From Defluviitaleaceae bacterium (GTDB taxonomy: Bacteria; Bacillota; Clostridia; Lachnospirales; WQUN01): DNA of 64,000 nucleotides. How positions within the stretch are numbered: the stretch's first letter is position 1; each line of letters opens with the position of its first letter. The stretch covers positions 1-64,000 of the forward strand of contig WQVF01000012.1 of the NCBI GenBank assembly GCA_009781725.1, read 5' to 3'. Of this stretch, positions 47,132 through 57,589 are shown one piece after another. The notes under the pieces are model-generated. The model did no database searches. It saw nothing but the letters and a program-made list of their open reading frames with translations, and was not told where the DNA came from. The translations under genes and the position numbers were made by a program.

Positions 47132-47333
47132 TAATCCATTCAAGCTAGCAGATACCTTAGACTATTACACCTCTGAAATTTTTCGTCTTTTACAGGAGAA
47201 AGATATTTTAGATACACTTAAATTCCACAGTGGTATATGTGGATGCGATGAAGGCAAAGGGGTCTCTGACAGAATACACGGCACGGTTTACCGTGTATAA
47301 GTGCGCTATGTTATTTATGAAAGGAGTTATTGT

Positions 47334-47618
47334 ATGCAAGCTGTAAAAGGACACATATCAAATGGGGTGTTTACTCCGCTCGATAACTTTAACATGCCTA
47401 GTTATGCACAAGTTATTCTTATCATTGAGGAAGTTTTTGCTAAGGTTAATCAGCCAGATACTCTTTTGTCTCCATCTGTAGACAACGAAGCATTAACTAG
47501 CATTGCATGGCTAGATAAAGTAGAGGCATTGCTGAAACAATCAAGGGATGAAGATATATCCGATTTTCCAACGCAGGAGACGATAAAAAATCTTAATGAC
47601 TACCCCTGGTTTGAATAG
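47334..47618 (+). CDS. Putative antitoxin (AF2212-like) of a PIN toxin
   Basis: 94 residues from the ATG at 47334 after AAAGGAG; the frame also opens upstream at 47301 without a site. The N-terminus (QAVKGHISNGVFTPLDNFNM) resembles the beta-strand domain of AF2212/DUF104-type antitoxins, with the G-V-F-x-P-L core. The acidic C-terminus (DEDISDFPTQETIKNLNDYP) could wrap the toxin. It lies 9 bases before a PIN-domain gene, the order usual for antitoxin-toxin pairs. Confidence 0.6.
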   Translation: MQAVKGHISNGVFTPLDNFNMPSYAQVILIIEEVFAKVNQPDTLLSPSVDNEALTSIAWLDKVEALLKQSRDEDISDFPTQETIKNLNDYPWFE

Positions 47619-47627
47619 AGGTGCATA

Positions 47628-48044
47628 ATGATTTATGTAATAGATACAAATGTGATTATTCATTATTTGAGAGAGCGTACAGAAGTCGTGAAAAATTTAC
47701 GCAAATCTATTTCCGAAGGAATTGAACTACTAATACCACGCGCCGTTGATTATGAAATACGGCGTGGTTTAGAATTGCTATCAGCAACAAAAAAAGCAAC
47801 TGTTTATAAAGCACTTCTTGACCCTAACGGCAAATGTCACATCGTTGATATGGGTGAAGATATTTGGGATAAGGCTAGAGAAAACTATGTCAAATTAAAG
47901 CGAAAGGGTTTTACTGTTGGTGAGATTGATATTCTAATTGGCTCGTTTTGCCAACTACACCACTACCCTCTTATTACAGATAATACGAAGGATTTTGTAA
48001 ATATGGACGGGATTAAATTAATAACTTGGACAGAAGCTCTTTAG
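47628..48044 (+). CDS. VapC-like PIN domain ribonuclease
   Basis: 138 residues. PIN-fold acidic residues are in MIYVIDTNVIIHYLRE (first Asp), RAVDYEIRRGLELL (Glu), and GEIDILIGSFCQLHHYPLIT, DNTKDF (later Asp residues). VapC toxins cleave specific tRNAs or rRNA. The upstream gene is the likely antitoxin. AGGTG precedes the ATG. The chain appears complete and the active site intact. Confidence 0.8.
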   Translation: MIYVIDTNVIIHYLRERTEVVKNLRKSISEGIELLIPRAVDYEIRRGLELLSATKKATVYKALLDPNGKCHIVDMGEDIWDKARENYVKLKRKGFTVGEIDILIGSFCQLHHYPLITDNTKDFVNMDGIKLITWTEAL

Positions 48045-49078: not shown

Positions 49079-49161
49079 TGTTATGGGGAAATCCGGGAAA
49101 TTGTTGCAATGTGCTAATTTTTGCATATTGACAATGCAATTAATCTGCGAATTATTACATA

Positions 49162-49190
49162 TTGACAGGATGCCCCTCCCCTATTAGAAT
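49162..49190 (+). promoter_or_regulatory. Strong promoter of the peptide-modification cluster
   Basis: TTGACA (49162-49167) and TAGAAT (49185-49190) are 17 bases apart, near consensus. CATATTGACA occurs twice just upstream (about 49125 and 49158), as a direct repeat about 33 bases apart, which could be a regulator site. Confidence 0.7.
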
Positions 49191-49260
49191 GAGCGCAACG
49201 AATAGTAATGACTTATAATATGGCAATGCTAATAGCAAGTGCATGAGGGGGGCAATACAT

Positions 49261-50598
49261 ATGAAGGCGTCGAGATATAATTTCTTTTTCCCTTACGAGC
49301 CGGACGACAGCAGGTTGATTGCATACAACTCATTATCTAACGCTTTAGCAATTATTGACAAAATCAAGCATAATGAATTACAGCAATATATTGATTCAGG
49401 CATAGAAATCAGTGATATTGAGTTAGTTAATAATTTAAAAGCTGGTGGGTTTCTAATAAGTGCAGAGCGCAATGAACTTGATGTTATAAAGTTACGCATG
49501 CTAAAGAGTAGATATAACACAAATGCATTAGGACTTACTATTGTACCTACAGCGGATTGCTGTTTTCGTTGCTTATACTGCTATGAAAAAGATGTAATCA
49601 AGCCAATATATATGACTCCAGAAGTAGAAGATGCGATTGTAAATCTAGCAGAGAGCTACATACGAGTTATAACCAGCTTTCGGGTTAACTGGTATGGCGG
49701 GGAACCTCTTATGAACATTGGTTCTGTAGAGCGGCTTTCTCGCAGGCTTATGGAAATGTGCGAGAGGCACAATGTAGCCTACCATGCCGACATGGTGACA
49801 AATGGGTATTTGCTAACTCGGGAGATTGCGCAGCTTCTTGTAGAGCTAAAGGTGAGTTCATTGCAAATTACATTGGATGGATGCGAAGATGTACATAATG
49901 AGCGAAGGCCACATACTGATGGCTCAGGTACATTTAGTGTAATACTTTCCAATTTAATAGCCAGCAAAGACATATTACCTGATGTGTCTCTGCGTATCAA
50001 TGTAGACAAAAGCAATATTACTGCAGGAGGAGACATTTCAAAAATTATAGACGAACATGGACTCAAGGGAAAGGTACAGCCCTATTTAGGAAGGGTTATG
50101 GATGAGAAACATGAAAATGCAAGCTGTTTCGATAGTTGCGGCTTTTCTCGTGAAGAATTTAAGTATTTTAGTGAGTTTACTGACACAGATATGTATATGC
50201 GACATTACCCAATAGCTATGAAAAACTACTGTGGAGCGGATTACCTCAACTCATATGTAATTGGCGCGGATGGAAAGCTGTATAAGTGTTGGCTTGATAT
50301 AGGGGATGACGCACGGTGTACCGGTAGCTTGATTGACGGTGTGGACGCCAATGAAAGCTTATATATGAGTTATTTGCTTAACGATCCTACCGTTGATGAA
50401 GATTGTAATGAATGCAAATTATTGCCTGTTTGCATGGGTGGATGTCCACATAAGAGAATTATTAAGAATGAGGGCACTTGTAGCACGTTTAAATTCGTGC
50501 TTGCTGATTTGTTGAAGGTTATTACACGCAATCTCAAGTTGCAAAAGGATTTGGGTAGTGGTGTAGGGTGTGACTGTGCAGATTGTGGTTGTGAGTAG
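49261..50598 (+). CDS. Radical SAM/SPASM peptide maturase
   Basis: 445 residues from the ATG at 49261, eight bases after GAGGGGGG. The N-terminal 90 residues (SRYNFFFPYEPDDSRLIAYN) resemble the leader-binding front domain of SPASM maturases. The radical SAM cluster motif CX3CX2C is C100-C104-C107 (CCFRCLYC), followed by WYGGEPLMN. The SPASM region has NYCGADYLN, KCWLDIG and CNECKLLPVCMGGCPHKR. A cysteine-rich tail (GCDCADCGCE) ends the chain. Such enzymes make thioether or carbon-carbon links in peptides. The 71-residue Cys-rich peptide encoded 94 bases downstream is the likely substrate. Confidence 0.88.
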   Translation: MKASRYNFFFPYEPDDSRLIAYNSLSNALAIIDKIKHNELQQYIDSGIEISDIELVNNLKAGGFLISAERNELDVIKLRMLKSRYNTNALGLTIVPTADCCFRCLYCYEKDVIKPIYMTPEVEDAIVNLAESYIRVITSFRVNWYGGEPLMNIGSVERLSRRLMEMCERHNVAYHADMVTNGYLLTREIAQLLVELKVSSLQITLDGCEDVHNERRPHTDGSGTFSVILSNLIASKDILPDVSLRINVDKSNITAGGDISKIIDEHGLKGKVQPYLGRVMDEKHENASCFDSCGFSREEFKYFSEFTDTDMYMRHYPIAMKNYCGADYLNSYVIGADGKLYKCWLDIGDDARCTGSLIDGVDANESLYMSYLLNDPTVDEDCNECKLLPVCMGGCPHKRIIKNEGTCSTFKFVLADLLKVITRNLKLQKDLGSGVGCDCADCGCE

Positions 50599-50692
50599 CA
50601 TTGCGCCCTGGGAGTTTACATTAAACTTCGAAAAACATGAAAACAACGGTCTCTTGTAGATGCGTTAAATAATCAAGAAAGGAAGTGGACTT

Positions 50693-50908
50693 ATGGAATT
50701 TTTAGTATTGGGCGACTATGAGGTTGTTGCACCGATGGGCGGCGGCCCCAATCCATGGCCAAGTGATTCGGGTAATGATAGTGGATGCGCTTGGCTTGGA
50801 GGATGTGGGCCACAGAGTTTTTGCATGCCTCCTTGTTGCCGCACCCTGTGTCGTGATGTAAGGTTGTTCGGATGCAATGATGTTGGTTGTCCGCGAGGTA
50901 TATGCTAA
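50693..50908 (+). CDS. Cysteine-rich precursor peptide of a putative RiPP
   Basis: 71 residues. The first 31 have no cysteine and include a glycine-proline stretch (APMGGGPNPWPSDSG). The C-terminal 40 hold nine cysteines at 32, 38, 44, 48, 49, 53, 61, 66 and 71, spaced 5-5-3-0-3-7-4-4, with the last at the C-terminus. GAAAGGAAG precedes the ATG. A hairpin terminator follows at once (50928-50969), so this gene could be expressed more strongly than the protease and exporter behind it. Leader plus Cys-rich core next to a SPASM enzyme suggests a ranthipeptide- or sactipeptide-like product; I recognise no known precursor family. A metallothionein-like protein is the alternative. Confidence 0.75.
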   Translation: MEFLVLGDYEVVAPMGGGPNPWPSDSGNDSGCAWLGGCGPQSFCMPPCCRTLCRDVRLFGCNDVGCPRGIC

Positions 50909-50927
50909 ACAAGCAAAGGCACCAAAC

Positions 50928-50969
50928 CATCCCAGGGATTTGCACTGTAAATCCTTGGGATGTTATTTT
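50928..50969 (+). terminator. Terminator or attenuator after the precursor gene
   Basis: CATCCCAGGGATTT (50928-50941) pairs with AAATCCTTGGGATG (50949-50962) with one G-T pair, followed by TTATTTT. Partial read-through would give more precursor than exporter. Confidence 0.8.
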
Positions 50970-50996
50970 ACATAACTGTACTAGGAGTGACCAGTG

Positions 50997-52616
50997 ATGA
51001 AGCGACATACTGGCATATTGATATCAGCAATCGTTATTTTATTAGCATCCTGCGGAAGGACAAACCATGATGACAGAGATAATGTGTATGCCGAATCAAC
51101 ACTGCAATACTCTCTTGATGTTGCATTACGACGAAGGGAGAGTATAGTAAAGCCTGATTATACAATGCTTGCTTCTCTCGCAGACGGGCGTGTGCCTATG
51201 CGCTACGGAACACTGTACAGATACATGTTTCCGCGAAGGCAGCCCACATATTTAGCTGTTGACGATGCAATATCAGATTTGTGGCTGTTTTTTGAGCTTA
51301 TGCAGGGTGCATATGGCGGATATGTAGCTTTTGGCGGTGATGAAGAATTTATCCCGATTTTTGAACAAATTGAGGCATATATACTGGGGCAGGGTAGCAG
51401 GTCGATGTCTCTATTTTTCGGACTTGATGGCATCTATATATCAGTTGCGTCACTCAAAATACTTATTCATCACCATCTCAATGATGTGATAACAGATAGG
51501 CATTTCAGTATCGGTGATTTCGCGTTTGGCAGTACGCCATACTTTATGTTTGCTTCGGAAGACCTGACATATGATAGAAGGGATAATAGCTTTATAAACA
51601 AAGAAACTGGACAATACTTAGTTTCAGTTGAGGGACATGAGTTAACTGAAATTATGAAGCAACATATGGATGAGGAGGGGCATCTATTTTATATGCCTAT
51701 TTTTTACATTGATATGACTAAGTACTTTGCTGAATTGGAAGAAGCTTATATGAGTTATATTGATGGACTAGATGAAGAGGTGTTACTTAATTATTTATCA
51801 CAACAAGAATTACAACAAGCTCCATCAATAACACCTGTACAAATTAATTTTGTATACGAAGATGAAGAAATAATTCGAGTATTTGAAGAAAAACGCTTTC
51901 ATCATCATAGTTATGAAAGACAGTTGCCTACCTTGGAGAATAGATATGGAATCCCCGTTATATCAGTGATGTACATGGGTTTTGGTTATAGTGCGCGAGG
52001 TTTTGCTTATGAACACGTACAACCATTCCTTTCTTTTGTTGACTATATACGGGAAGAACCCGTAGTAATAGTTGATTTGCGCGGTAATATTGGTGGAAAC
52101 GCACGCTTGCCTGCAATGTGGATATATGAGCTTACAGGAAAAATTATTTACCCTAACTTTGTAAGCCTACTTGCTATGGAATACACTACTCATTTTCCTG
52201 GAGATCGACCAACATCACAAAAGTTCCAAGCCGCAAGACAACCATTTGAAAATGGCTATACAATATCCAACACAGAGCCTCGTAAAATATTGGAGCGCGA
52301 ACAAATTATCATAGTCCTAACAGACACACAAACAAGTTCAGCTGCAGAAATCTTTGTGGATATTATATTCAACATATCTAACACCCTGGTAATTGGTACT
52401 CCTACATCTGGTACAATGACATTTGATTTGACTTATCCCCAATTATGGCTACCTCATTCCGGCTTAAGTTTTGGGTTTGGTAGAACTATGCATATATGGC
52501 CAGAGGGACATTTTGCAGAAGGAAGGGGAATTGAACCTGACATATGGGTATGGGGAGATGCGCTTGCTGCGGCACTTTCACTATTGCGCAATGCTGGAAT
52601 TGGTGATTTGGATTGA
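50997..52616 (+). CDS. S41 family protease, lipoprotein
   Basis: 539 residues from the ATG at 50997, nine bases after AGGAG. The signal peptide ILISAIVILLASC ends in a lipobox (LASC), so the protein is lipid-anchored outside the cell. The S41 core lies in the last 200 residues: VIVDLRGNIGGNARLPAMWI and the nucleophile Ser near residue 445 in TDTQTSSAAEIFVD, then VIGTPTSGTMTFD. A long N-terminal region (about 30-300) is unassigned. In this cluster it may cut the exported leader or a target on the cell surface. It overlaps the ABC gene by a few bases. Confidence 0.82.
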   Translation: MKRHTGILISAIVILLASCGRTNHDDRDNVYAESTLQYSLDVALRRRESIVKPDYTMLASLADGRVPMRYGTLYRYMFPRRQPTYLAVDDAISDLWLFFELMQGAYGGYVAFGGDEEFIPIFEQIEAYILGQGSRSMSLFFGLDGIYISVASLKILIHHHLNDVITDRHFSIGDFAFGSTPYFMFASEDLTYDRRDNSFINKETGQYLVSVEGHELTEIMKQHMDEEGHLFYMPIFYIDMTKYFAELEEAYMSYIDGLDEEVLLNYLSQQELQQAPSITPVQINFVYEDEEIIRVFEEKRFHHHSYERQLPTLENRYGIPVISVMYMGFGYSARGFAYEHVQPFLSFVDYIREEPVVIVDLRGNIGGNARLPAMWIYELTGKIIYPNFVSLLAMEYTTHFPGDRPTSQKFQAARQPFENGYTISNTEPRKILEREQIIIVLTDTQTSSAAEIFVDIIFNISNTLVIGTPTSGTMTFDLTYPQLWLPHSGLSFGFGRTMHIWPEGHFAEGRGIEPDIWVWGDALAAALSLLRNAGIGDLD

Positions 52617-54253
52617 TTGCTTTAAAGATTTTTCGTATGTGTAAAAAATATGTACTTAATCATAGATTTGCTTTTGGGGTATTTATTCTTTTTAGCATAT
52701 TAAGCAGTGCTAGCGGACTTATTTCCCCTTATATATTGGGTGATTTTATCGACCAGCTCATAAACGCAGACGATATTGGTTTTATTTACCGTTATTTCGT
52801 TTTGTTTGTCTTGATTAGTGTGACCCATCTGATTTTCGGATATGTTGTCGGACGGCAAGATATCTACTTGCAGACCCGAGCTGGGTATGCAATGAGCCAT
52901 GAATACATACAAAAATTACAATTAGCACCGCTGGCTTTCACACAGAAGCGAGATACTGCTTATTTAAGTCAACACATTATCAGTGATACTAGCTCTTTAA
53001 TTCAATTTTGCATTGGTATTATTCAGAAGTTGGTGATTAATATCGTAACAGTGGGGCTATCCCTTGGTCTCATGTTTTTGTTTCATCCAGGTTTGGCAGG
53101 CATGCTATTAGGTGTATGTGTTGTATATTTCTCTATTTATGCGCGATGCAGGCGGATTCTGTACAAGGTCAACTCAGAGCTTCAAGAATCAAGCCTTTCC
53201 ATGTTTACTAAGTTGCATGAGCAGGTATCAAGTATTCGTTTTACTAAGCTTAATGTCTTATTTTCCTTTTTTAAGAATAGATTTGTGCAAGCTGTAAACC
53301 GGCTTCTAGGAAGCGCACTACAGCACCAACGGACAAACTATATGATTAGTAGCTTAGACATATTGGTGTCAATTACTGCTCAAATGACCCTTTTACTTGT
53401 GGGAGGGAGAGAGATTATAGCTGGTAGGCTAACCATTGGTCGTTTCTTGATTATGTCCAGTTATTTTCAACTGATGCTCAGCTCAATTCGCTACTTTTTT
53501 GGGTTAGGTCAGATGATTCAAGGCAAGATGGTGTCTTATAATCGCCTACAGGAGCTTGCTGCTGTTAAACCAGAGCATAATGGCGAGCAGAGGCTTGATG
53601 AAATTTATTCAGTCAGACTAAACTCAGTATCATTTGCTTATGATGAAACTCCTATACTCCAAAATATCAACATGTGCTTTACAAAAGGCCAGATTAATGT
53701 ATTCTTAGGTCCAAATGGTGCAGGTAAAAGCACCCTTGCCGACATAATAATGGGTTTGCAGAACGGAAATTACACCGGAGATGTGCTTTATAATGGAATA
53801 GACATGAGAAATCTTGATATGTACACTATACGTGATAGACATATTGGAATATCGGAGCAGGAACCAATCCTCTTGGCTGATACCCTGGCCTACAATCTCA
53901 ATCTTGGGCAAGCAGTATTTACAGGAACTGATGAAGCCAATCTGAATAGGCTAATAAAAATCCTGGGTCTTGACCCATGCATCAGTAATTTACCTAATCA
54001 TCTGGAAACTATGATAAATGAAAACGCCGCCAATGTATCCGGCGGTGAAAAACAAAAATTCTCTATTCTCCGGGCATTGTTAAAAGACCCGGATGTGCTA
54101 ATATTGGATGAGCCGACATCTGCCTTGGATGTAGCAAGCAAAACCGCATTAAGAGCCTATCTTGATGAGATTAAGATGGAGAAAATTATTTTAGTAATCA
54201 CTCATGATGAGGATTTTATCAACTATGAACATGATGTGATTTTGCAACTATAA
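52613..54253 (+). CDS. ABC transporter, fused permease and ATPase
   Basis: 546 residues from a TTG at 52613 that overlaps the protease stop; an ATG at 52637 is the alternative. The membrane domain (about 1-300, six helices starting FAFGVFILFSILSSASGLIS) is followed by the ATPase: Walker A FLGPNGAGKSTLAD, signature NVSGGEKQKFSILRA, Walker B DVLILDEPTSALD and the switch His in VITHDED. There is no N-terminal C39 peptidase, so leader removal must be done elsewhere. It probably exports the cysteine-rich peptide. The 3' end overlaps the convergent hydF by 6 bases. Confidence 0.88.
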   Translation: MIALKIFRMCKKYVLNHRFAFGVFILFSILSSASGLISPYILGDFIDQLINADDIGFIYRYFVLFVLISVTHLIFGYVVGRQDIYLQTRAGYAMSHEYIQKLQLAPLAFTQKRDTAYLSQHIISDTSSLIQFCIGIIQKLVINIVTVGLSLGLMFLFHPGLAGMLLGVCVVYFSIYARCRRILYKVNSELQESSLSMFTKLHEQVSSIRFTKLNVLFSFFKNRFVQAVNRLLGSALQHQRTNYMISSLDILVSITAQMTLLLVGGREIIAGRLTIGRFLIMSSYFQLMLSSIRYFFGLGQMIQGKMVSYNRLQELAAVKPEHNGEQRLDEIYSVRLNSVSFAYDETPILQNINMCFTKGQINVFLGPNGAGKSTLADIIMGLQNGNYTGDVLYNGIDMRNLDMYTIRDRHIGISEQEPILLADTLAYNLNLGQAVFTGTDEANLNRLIKILGLDPCISNLPNHLETMINENAANVSGGEKQKFSILRALLKDPDVLILDEPTSALDVASKTALRAYLDEIKMEKIILVITHDEDFINYEHDVILQL

Positions 54254-55399
54254 AGGACGAACACACCGCTCCAGAATCCCCTGCATAAAGCTTATAGCAA
54301 CACCATAATTAGTCATAGGTATGCCCTGAGCTTTTGCCTGACTCTGCCGATATTGCATCTCCTTAAAGTTCTGCATACAGCCCCCGCAATGGATAATTAA
54401 CTTGTAATCAGAAAGATTTGATGGAAAATCCCCCCCGGATGTAAAAGTGTAATCGGGCTTCGCCCCGGTGCGCTTTTCTATCCACCGGGGGATTTTTACT
54501 GTGCCTATATCGTCGCATTGGCGGTGGTGGGTGCAGCCCTCGGCGATTAATAGCTTGTCGCCGTCCTTTAGGACATCAATTATTTTCGCGCTTTCGATAG
54601 CATATTCTAATACACCTTTATAACGGGCCATTAATATTGAAAATGATGTCAGGTTGACATCAAGGGGTGTTTTTTCCGCTACATCTGCAAAGGCTTGACT
54701 GTCGGTGATTACTAGTTTTGGTGGGGAGGTAAGCTTCACAAAGGTATCCGATAGCTCTGGTGGCTGAGTGACAACACAAATTGCGCCTATGTCTAAGCAA
54801 TCCCGGATTACTTGCTGTTGTGGGAGGATTAGTCTGCCTTTGGGTGCGGAAGCATCTATTGGCACAACCAGTACAACCATATCCTTTGGCTCCAGCAAGT
54901 CTGCGACTAGCTTGGGTTCCGGTTCGTGAGCCTGGGCTATTTCGGCGATTTTTTCTTTTAGTTCGTGGATATTTTCCCCGGTGATGCTGCTTACATTTAA
55001 ACCATCGTATTTAATTCCTAGGTCGGATTTGTTGTATACAATCAAATATTTTGTTTTGCCCAATTGACGGATTAGCTTTTCTTCGTAGGTGCCAAAGCCT
55101 TGTGATGGGTCTACTACCAGTAGGGCTATGTCGGTTTTCCGTAGTATATTCTGGGTTTTTTCTATTCTTAGATACCCCAATTTGCTTTCGTCATCTATAC
55201 CGGCGGTGTCTATCAGTACCACCGGGCCTATGGGCAGTAGCTCCATTGTTTTGTATACAGGGTCGGTGGTTGTCCCTTTTATATGGGAAACCAACGCCGC
55301 GTCCTGGCCAGTGATGGCGTTTATCAGGCTGGATTTTCCTGCGTTACGCCTGCCGAAGATGCCGATATGCAGACGGTTGCTGCGGGGGGTAGTGTTCAT
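54248..55399 (-). CDS. hydF: [FeFe]-hydrogenase maturation GTPase HydF
   Basis: 383 residues from the ATG at 55399 after GGAGG. HydF is the scaffold on which the 2Fe subcluster is assembled before transfer to the hydrogenase. The GTPase domain has GRRNAGKSSLINAI, DTAGIDD and YNKSDL; the C-terminal cluster-binding domain has EGCTHHRQCDDIGTVKIPRW and IIHCGGCM, giving the C-H-C-C ligand set. The start overlaps the hydG stop (ATGA), and the whole set reads hydE-hydG-hydF on the minus strand. Confidence 0.95.
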   Translation of the reverse strand: MNTTPRSNRLHIGIFGRRNAGKSSLINAITGQDAALVSHIKGTTTDPVYKTMELLPIGPVVLIDTAGIDDESKLGYLRIEKTQNILRKTDIALLVVDPSQGFGTYEEKLIRQLGKTKYLIVYNKSDLGIKYDGLNVSSITGENIHELKEKIAEIAQAHEPEPKLVADLLEPKDMVVLVVPIDASAPKGRLILPQQQVIRDCLDIGAICVVTQPPELSDTFVKLTSPPKLVITDSQAFADVAEKTPLDVNLTSFSILMARYKGVLEYAIESAKIIDVLKDGDKLLIAEGCTHHRQCDDIGTVKIPRWIEKRTGAKPDYTFTSGGDFPSNLSDYKLIIHCGGCMQNFKEMQYRQSQAKAQGIPMTNYGVAISFMQGILERCVRPL

Positions 55400-56574
55400 T
55401 TTTTTGCCTCCATCAAACCATGAGAGATGGGCGTTCCCTCGCCGTAGGCAGGGGAACACCCGGACAGGTACTCTTGTAGGGTCTTGAGTGCATTGCGTTG
55501 GCAGATATCATGAATATCGCCGGATTTACATAGCTTCATAAATTTTTCTCCTACCCGACCTTCTCGGTAGCAGGCGGTGCAGAAGCTGGGGGTGTAGCCT
55601 GCGTCCATTAGCCAGGTCACGATTTCGTGTAGATTGCGGGTATCGGATATTTCGAATTGACGGCTGTCGTCTGAGTGTGCGTAGCCCCCCACAGAGGTAC
55701 AGGACCCGCCGCTGATTTGGGAAACACCGATATCAAGGAGTTTTCTTCGAATAAGTTCATCTTCTCTTGTAGATAGGATTATACCTGTGTATGGGACAGC
55801 AATTCGCAAAATCGCCACGATTCTGGCAAATGTCTCGTCATCAACCATTCCGTTGGGTAATCGTGGTACGCTGATGGTATGAGGGCCGACGCCGTAGGTG
55901 GTTTCCAAATGCTTGGCGTGATTAAGTAATCCGGCAACCTCGTGGCGATAATCCGCCAAGCCAAATAAGGCACCGATGCCCACATCATGTAGGCCAGTCT
56001 CAATGGCCCTGTCCATAGCCCCGGAATGCCAATCAAAGTCCGACTTTGGGCCGTATGGATGGAGCTTTTCATAAGTAGGGCGGTGATATGTTTCCTGAAA
56101 TAAAATATACGTACCGATATTGGCGGCAGCAAGACGGCGGTAGTCTTCCTCAGTTGTGGCGGCAATATTTACATTGATGCGGCGGATATCCCCGCTCTTA
56201 TATATGGTGTCGATTGATTCCAAAATGTAGTCGATTGGACTCTCCTGGGGATGTTCCCCCGTTTCTATTACAATGCGCTTATGACCCATGGCTGTAAGAG
56301 CCTGGACTTCCTTGCGGATTTGGTCTTGGGTGAGGCGTTTGCGAGGCATGTCTTCGTTGTCGGCGCGGTATGGGCAATAAACACAGCCGTTGACACAGTA
56401 GTTGGAAAGATACAGGGGTGCGAACAGTACAACCCTGCTACCGTAGATGGCGGATTTTATACTTCCCGCTAGGTCAAATAATGCTTCATTTGAGGCGGTT
56501 TCCAGGAGAAATAAAGCTTCATGTGGTTCAAGGCCTTTCATTTTGGTGGCTTTTGCCATTATTTCATTCAGCAT
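55396..56574 (-). CDS. hydG: [FeFe]-hydrogenase maturase HydG, short N-terminus
   Basis: 392 residues from the ATG at 56574 after AAGAGGTG. HydG cleaves tyrosine to form the CO and cyanide ligands of the H-cluster. The radical SAM motif is CVNGCVYC (CX3CX2C) in LYLSNYCVNGCVYCPYRADN, and the C-terminal auxiliary-cluster region has FCTACYREGRVGEKFMKLC and DICQRNALKTLQEYL. Known HydG proteins have about 470 residues; this one is about 75 shorter, and upstream frame residues lie inside hydE, so the N-terminal helix is shortened. It is not ThiH, which lacks the C-terminal cysteines. Confidence 0.92.
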   Translation of the reverse strand: MLNEIMAKATKMKGLEPHEALFLLETASNEALFDLAGSIKSAIYGSRVVLFAPLYLSNYCVNGCVYCPYRADNEDMPRKRLTQDQIRKEVQALTAMGHKRIVIETGEHPQESPIDYILESIDTIYKSGDIRRINVNIAATTEEDYRRLAAANIGTYILFQETYHRPTYEKLHPYGPKSDFDWHSGAMDRAIETGLHDVGIGALFGLADYRHEVAGLLNHAKHLETTYGVGPHTISVPRLPNGMVDDETFARIVAILRIAVPYTGIILSTREDELIRRKLLDIGVSQISGGSCTSVGGYAHSDDSRQFEISDTRNLHEIVTWLMDAGYTPSFCTACYREGRVGEKFMKLCKSGDIHDICQRNALKTLQEYLSGCSPAYGEGTPISHGLMEAKK

Positions 56575-57589
56575 AGTCACCTCTTGACACCACAACTTCA
56601 CAGCCGATTGCAGCCATTTGCTTGGCAATGCGGTCACGAAACTGAGCCGGTTTATCTCCTATGTGGGATTTATTATCGTACAATTGATATTTCCCCTGGG
56701 TTTCCGGGGAAGAAAGATTAGGCATTACTACATTTGCACCGGCGAGGACACCCATTTCTCGACCCTTGGGATGGATGTTACCAAGGGCGGTGGTTGAGGG
56801 TAACAGCAAATTCGGTTTCATCAGTCGCAGGATTGCAACTATATTGAGAGTAAGAGCAAGATTGCCTCGCTTTTCTCCTGCGAAAGGGGTTTCGGAATGG
56901 GGAATAAAAGGACCGATGCCAACCATCGCCGGGTCAAGCTCTTTGATAAATAGAAAATCATCAACGATATGGTCAAGAGTCTGGCCGGGAGTGCCTACCA
57001 TAAAACCACAACCCACCTGGAAGCCCAGGGATTTAAGATTCCACAGACAGTCTTGCCGGGATTTTAGGTTCATATTGGGGGGGTGTAATTGTGAGTAGTG
57101 GTTTGCGCTGGAGGTTTCCTGGCGAAGGAGATATCTGTCTGCACCGGCGACTCGAAGCAGTTTTAAGCTCTCTAGGCTGCGTTCTCCCAAGGAGATGGTG
57201 ATAGCACAGTCAGGGTAACCGGTTTTTATGCTTTGGATTATGTCCACCAGGATTTCATCTGTGAAAAACGAATCTTCACCACCCTGTAACACAAAGGTTC
57301 TAAACCCAAGTTCATGCCCATGGGCACAGCATTCCAATATTTGCTCCTTTGTATAACGGTAACGCTGGACGGTTTTATTGCTGTGGCGTAATCCACAGTA
57401 ATAGCAATCGCATTTACAATAATTTGTGAACTCTATAAGCCCCCGCATGTAGATTTTATTGCCGAAGATTTTTTCACGGGTTGTGCTTGCCCTCTCATGA
57501 AGATATTTGTCATCACAAAGAAGGAGCGACTTATACTCGCTCCTTTGGAGATTGTTGGTGGATTCTAATTTGTGTATTAGGTCTTGCAT
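56564..57589 (-). CDS. hydE: [FeFe]-hydrogenase maturase HydE
   Basis: 341 residues. HydE supplies part of the 2Fe subcluster by radical chemistry on an iron-cysteine complex. The cluster motif CKCDCYYCGLR (CX3CX2C), FVLQGGEDSFFTDE, RYLLRQETSSANHYSQLHP, GFMVGTPGQT and GIGPFIPHSETPFAG are all hallmarks. It overlaps hydG by 11 bases and starts the operon. A strong hairpin (57633-57685) separates it from tyrS upstream, so it probably has its own promoter in the gap near 57600. Confidence 0.95.
   Translation of the reverse strand: MQDLIHKLESTNNLQRSEYKSLLLCDDKYLHERASTTREKIFGNKIYMRGLIEFTNYCKCDCYYCGLRHSNKTVQRYRYTKEQILECCAHGHELGFRTFVLQGGEDSFFTDEILVDIIQSIKTGYPDCAITISLGERSLESLKLLRVAGADRYLLRQETSSANHYSQLHPPNMNLKSRQDCLWNLKSLGFQVGCGFMVGTPGQTLDHIVDDFLFIKELDPAMVGIGPFIPHSETPFAGEKRGNLALTLNIVAILRLMKPNLLLPSTTALGNIHPKGREMGVLAGANVVMPNLSSPETQGKYQLYDNKSHIGDKPAQFRDRIAKQMAAIGCEVVVSRGDYAE

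Follow-up and report, generated by a model that had tools for sequence, protein, structure and literature searches.

A probable small RiPP cassette with a Clo7bot-like SPASM maturase and a predicted S41 lipoprotein in a gut-type Bacillota bacterium

Clo7bot-like clusters are widespread among anaerobic gut Bacillota. In Clo7bot systems proper, the precursors are Cys-rich peptides that start with MK[FY]I.KP and are encoded beside a maturase and an ABC exporter; e.g. a Clo7bot cluster on the Paraclostridium bifermentans plasmid NZ_CP094934 follows the same general plan, with many Cys-rich peptides, a maturase and an ABC exporter. Systems of this kind are already known, though chemically uncharacterised, and a further one will not surprise a RiPP specialist. 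Our literature search on Clo7bot, TIGR04334, TIGR04333, TIGR04463 and NF038107 returned no relevant paper, and in the literature searched neither a product nor a type of bond was described for Clo7bot-like clusters. The closest structural reference is the CteB/CteA SCIFF ranthipeptide system (5wgg, 5why), in which a SPASM enzyme acts on a Cys-rich peptide. CteB forms thioethers; in its RRE the leader is bound in beta-strand form, between alpha3 and beta3, and one of its SPASM clusters leaves a coordination site free for Cys (PMC8326336).

The window analysed here, i.e. the whole 64-kb stretch of DNA, derives from a gut-type Bacillota bacterium and contains a cassette of four genes at 49261-54253, all on the forward strand. 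The ORFs bear out the row read by the initial annotation (SPASM enzyme, 71-residue peptide, S41 lipoprotein and ABC exporter on one strand); 94 bp separate the maturase from the peptide gene and 88 bp the peptide gene from the S41 gene, which overlaps the ABC gene by 4 bp. The cassette most likely makes, cross-links, exports and trims a small Cys-rich peptide, and we hold it probable that it is a complete small RiPP cassette whose SPASM maturase belongs to a Clo7bot-like clade without a name, working as proposed below. Computation yielded the genes, their domains, conserved catalytic residues, an RRE-like fold, a family-wide leader signature and recurring neighbours; the enzyme motifs, fold and neighbouring genes support the SPASM-RiPP type of cluster that the initial annotation had proposed. 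New relative to that annotation are the recurrence of the exported S41 protein, a hairpin terminator after the peptide gene and a conserved leader of about five residues.

The maturase (49261..50598, + strand, 445 aa; start placed by homologue alignment, with an in-frame alternative at 49243) carries the radical SAM motif CX3CX2C as C100/C104/C107, which is invariant in 47 homologues, and matches PF04055 with 56 bits. Its SPASM auxiliary-cluster region, C324-C407 (50230..50481, +), has all seven SPASM cysteines conserved (C324, C343, C382, C385, C391, C395 and C407) and scores 53.5 bits against TIGR04085 (cut-off 27). In the AlphaFold model (pLDDT 92), residues 1-84 (49261..49512, +) were assigned as an RRE-like winged-helix region from the secondary structure and from structural alignment; they form three strands and three helices in the RRE arrangement, with a pLDDT of 95 or more. 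The closest solved structure is CteB 5wgg (VIA-align, Z 26; 398 residues aligned, residues 4-425, 19% identity), and the model also superposes on TigE 8vpo over residues 1-426 (VIA-align, Z 23). On three membership features the maturase is of the radical SAM/SPASM RiPP enzyme type with, as modelled, an N-terminal RRE fold. The protein ends in a Cys-rich tail, GVGCDCADCGCE (50553-50598), which is missing from the closest homologues and disordered in the model.

The initial annotation had likened the layout to Clostridial Cys-rich peptide systems with SPASM maturases and named Clo7bot as a group to compare; for Clo7bot this stands as kinship, since TIGR04334 (CtpM) is the best-scoring maturase family and both are RRE-SPASM enzymes, but not as membership. 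We rejected membership on the score (292.9 bits vs a TIGR04334 cut-off of 600), on the precursor model (the window peptide does not match TIGR04333 even at E 1) and on the position in a maximum-likelihood phylogeny built from 47 maturases, where the Clo7bot rows L059, L079, L061, L049, L052 and L069 form a 100/100 clade with the window enzyme outside it. The peptides of L059 and L079 pass the TIGR04333 cut-off with 48 and 39 bits. The cassette also differs from Clo7bot in its single 71-aa precursor, as opposed to many of about 35-53 aa, and in the additional S41 lipoprotein. For the CteB/CteA system the RRE region superposes as well; however, besides the low identity, the TIGR03974 score is 71 bits vs a cut-off of 425 and the peptide is not SCIFF, so that SCIFF membership was rejected. 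Four further models, which belong to the same superfamily of RRE-SPASM enzymes acting on Cys-rich peptides, are matched significantly, and membership was rejected in each case on the score: TIGR04463 (233 bits vs a cut-off of 525), CefB (NF038107; 205 vs 600), geopeptide maturase (TIGR04280; 186 vs 400) and PapB/freyrasin (NF047865; 119.9 vs 340).

Within the tree, the window maturase falls in a 25-row group (81/95) that is named by none of the NCBIfam models scanned. Homologues at 36-54% identity occur in 7 of the 38 genomes of the family (its own included) and across Bacillota. Nearly all of them adjoin small Cys-rich ORFs, one to seven per cluster, and they usually lie near an exporter homologous to that of the window. 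Thus, of the four-gene order that the initial annotation had suggested looking for elsewhere, maturase-peptide-exporter is common, whereas the S41 gene is an optional extra and was absent from the sequence examined around the four nearest maturase relatives. Several of these loci show layouts of their own. In the cluster of a near relative, L026 (1589-3933 and beyond), six or seven different precursors stand in a row behind one maturase, which suggests one promiscuous enzyme for many cores; L143 (4563-12108) carries, inside 8 kb, three maturase paralogues, of which each either has a small Cys peptide to itself or lacks one; and in L130 (G230) the maturase frame is broken by one TAA, so that either the sequence is in error or the cluster is decaying. 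A phage origin of the cluster was rejected, as the peptide had no phage match and IMG/VR matches to the maturase were distant (36% identity at most).

The precursor gene (50693..50908, +) encodes 71 aa with the N-terminus MEFLV and is preceded by an AGGA-type ribosome site; it was assigned from position, Cys content and leader signature. Its cysteines are residues 32, 38, 44, 48, 49, 53, 61, 66 and 71, in agreement with the nine in the last 40 residues, behind a Cys-free stretch 1-31, counted before. At the local Cys frequency of 1.3%, nine Cys in 71 residues have a probability of about 4e-7. Four other small ORFs with a ribosome site and at least six Cys occur in the 64-kb window, two of them with ferredoxin-like Cys patterns; none pairs Cys density with the leader signature, and none is a convincing further precursor. 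Precursors across clusters are nearly unalike in sequence except at their start, M-x-[YFW]-[LIV]-[LIVMQ]. Among short, Cys-rich ORFs preceded by a ribosome site, we found this signature in 36 of 62 within 1 kb of a maturase, compared to 3 of 46 controls (Fisher P 9e-9). The window peptide fits it with MEFLV, as does the L026 cluster with MEFLI; about 6.5% of control ORFs match too, so that a single fit means little and position and Cys content carry the case. The K/x-P that often trails the signature in precursors is missing here. The initial annotation had set apart residues 1-31 as a Cys-free front and spoken of a leader. Residue 31 is not supported as a leader boundary, because only the first five or so residues are conserved among precursors, and the position of the first Cys varies between about residue 8 and residue 32. 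Cys is the sole residue type enriched in all precursors.

The near-consensus promoter noticed before was recovered as the sigma-70-like TTGACA-17-TAGAAT (49162..49190, +), an 11/12 match inside a 248-bp gap that is equalled by about 0.9% of Markov versions of this gap (P about 0.009). A second TTGACA lies at 49128, 34 bp 5' of the -35 box of the promoter. Both -35-like boxes, 34 bp apart, are held in a direct repeat, CATATTGACA (49127-49167), which could represent tandem promoters or an operator. Between the peptide and the S41-ABC genes, starting 20 bp past the peptide stop, we found a putative intrinsic terminator or attenuator (50928..50962, +), a strong hairpin of 16 pairs followed by a T-rich tail (-25.2 kcal/mol, z -4.9; none of 200 shuffles as good). 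Given this position, the cell probably makes more of the peptide than of the protease and the exporter. Together with the 4-bp overlap of the S41 and ABC genes, the hairpin indicates organised co-expression.

The S41-family protease (50997..52616, +, 539 aa) is a predicted lipoprotein with the lipobox ILLASC, which supports the earlier view that the only protease of the cluster is exported. It scores 43.2 bits against PF03572 (cut-off 24); its structure is poorly predicted (pLDDT 51). Like CtpA and the tricorn-like members of peptidase S41 (PF03572), it is exported and conserves the Ser, the His and the GG motif; unlike them, it has a long N-terminal half without domain assignment. In an alignment of six maturase-linked S41 proteins, the catalytic-type Ser448, His169 and D-x-x-x-N-x-GG are invariant, and each protein has a lipobox or a hydrophobic start; five S41 proteins were also scanned against Pfam, and all lie above its cut-off. 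In 5 of 18 genomes (the window, L130, L131, L132 and L146) an S41 gene lies no more than 5 kb from the maturase, where 0.47 would be expected from each genome's own S41 counts (P 6e-5); without counting the window, it is 4 of 17 genomes (P 7e-4). Further S41 neighbours of maturases beyond this count are L041, L066 and L191; at L191 (5392-10669) and L066 (4953-10202), in other Bacillota and a Bacteroidetes genome, S41 genes directly flank or follow SPASM maturases. Across the maturase tree the presence of S41 is scattered (6 changes, no clustering). In the literature searched, including a protease review (PMC10885120), we found no described role of S41 proteins in RiPP maturation. We read the S41 protein as a recurrent optional partner, which most likely trims the peptide extracellularly; the chief alternative is a protective role.

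The fourth gene (52613..54253, +), whose TTG start overlaps the S41 stop, encodes an ABC exporter of 546 aa with fused membrane and ATPase domains. A domain scan matched only ABC_membrane and ABC_tran, as the initial annotation had anticipated in describing an exporter without C39 peptidase; a transporter of the C39 peptidase-containing type (PCAT) was ruled out by the lack of an N-terminal C39 domain.

For the chemistry, the docking of the leader, the order of events, the substrate of the S41 protein and the biological role we infer the following scheme from sequence and modelled structure. The promoter at 49162 would drive transcription of maturase and precursor, and the hairpin past the precursor would halt most transcripts, leaving a lower level of protease and exporter. 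The MEFLV stretch of the precursor may dock as a beta strand in the N-terminal RRE domain of the maturase, whose radical SAM and SPASM clusters would oxidatively cross-link Cys in the region 32-71 to nearby residues. These links are most likely thioethers as in ranthipeptides or sactipeptides, a chemistry with which the enzyme fold is consistent. The C39-less ABC protein, presumably coupled to the protease in translation, would export the modified peptide, leftover Cys may pair as disulfides following export, and the membrane-anchored S41 protease would trim the peptide outside the cell.

A rival reading of this scheme concerns the S41 protein. The RiPP cassette may be just as described and the S41 protein still not be its leader protease; it could act on the product outside the cell in self-protection or quality control, or be an unrelated gene on the exporter transcript. 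In that case a housekeeping protease may cut off the leader, or the leader may stay in place. We consider this quite possible, though not the likelier case. Most clusters, the nearest relatives among them, have no S41 gene and so manage without it, and the linked proteins are of at least two architectures, Tricorn_C1 matches being found in only 2 of the 5 others tested. The reciprocal search covered nine other genomes that carry a window-like S41 protein, and in just one of them does its gene stand beside a SPASM maturase; this one additional linked case (L191) means that S41 is not specific to such clusters. On the other hand, the 4-bp overlap with the ABC gene, the enrichment of S41 genes near maturases and the position of the S41 gene directly 3' of the peptide gene in L130, L131 and L132 speak for a function within the cassette, and external trimming remains our preferred reading.

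The modification may also be other than thioether formation, e.g. Cys-aromatic or C-C cross-links or epimers, with the Cys serving as disulfides or metal ligands. Homologous SPASM enzymes form many link types (PMC8326336), the models of characterised maturases are all below cut-off for the window enzyme, and Cys count and spacing vary freely among precursors. The odd number of nine Cys also means that disulfides alone cannot take all of them. As the peptide has no detectable homologue, conserved acceptor residues cannot be named for either chemistry. Against the alternative, the closest solved structure is a thioether synthase (CteB), models for PapB ranthipeptide and Cys-rich-peptide maturases are among the matches, and it is only Cys that is enriched across precursors, so that we judge a different chemistry rather unlikely and keep to thioethers. 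Very improbable, in our view, is a reading in which the SPASM enzyme has another target and the 71-aa ORF encodes a small protein with a structural or metal-binding function. Homologue searches with the peptide detected none, which leaves room for such a reading; yet the ORF stands at the usual position of the precursors and shares their N-terminal signature and Cys enrichment. The initial annotation had named two observations that would count against a precursor, peptide homologues occurring without the SPASM gene and a match to a metal-binding or structural family. Neither was found, and the latter assignment was rejected for want of a match in Pfam, NCBIfam, PHROG or PDB.

Somewhat doubtfully, we suggest that these clusters form a distinct RiPP clade with a leader of about five residues (M-x-aromatic-aliphatic-aliphatic), hypervariable Cys-rich cores of 25-90 residues, one promiscuous SPASM enzyme and S41 proteins repeatedly recruited as external maturation proteases. 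Should the enzyme recognise its substrates by their first five residues, it may tolerate almost any Cys-rich sequence that follows, and such a short-handle rule, if true, would help in the production of cross-linked peptides. The clade of the window represents a minimal set of one enzyme, one precursor, one protease and one exporter, and would, on the same premise, be useful for learning the roles of such peptides in gut communities. As to the surrounding genes, hydF, hydG and hydE ([FeFe]-hydrogenase maturation) stand in a row at 54248-57589 on the reverse strand, convergent with the cluster, and a toxin-antitoxin-like pair (a small ORF, then a PIN-domain protein) lies at 47301-48044, just 5' of a PAP2-type phosphatase.
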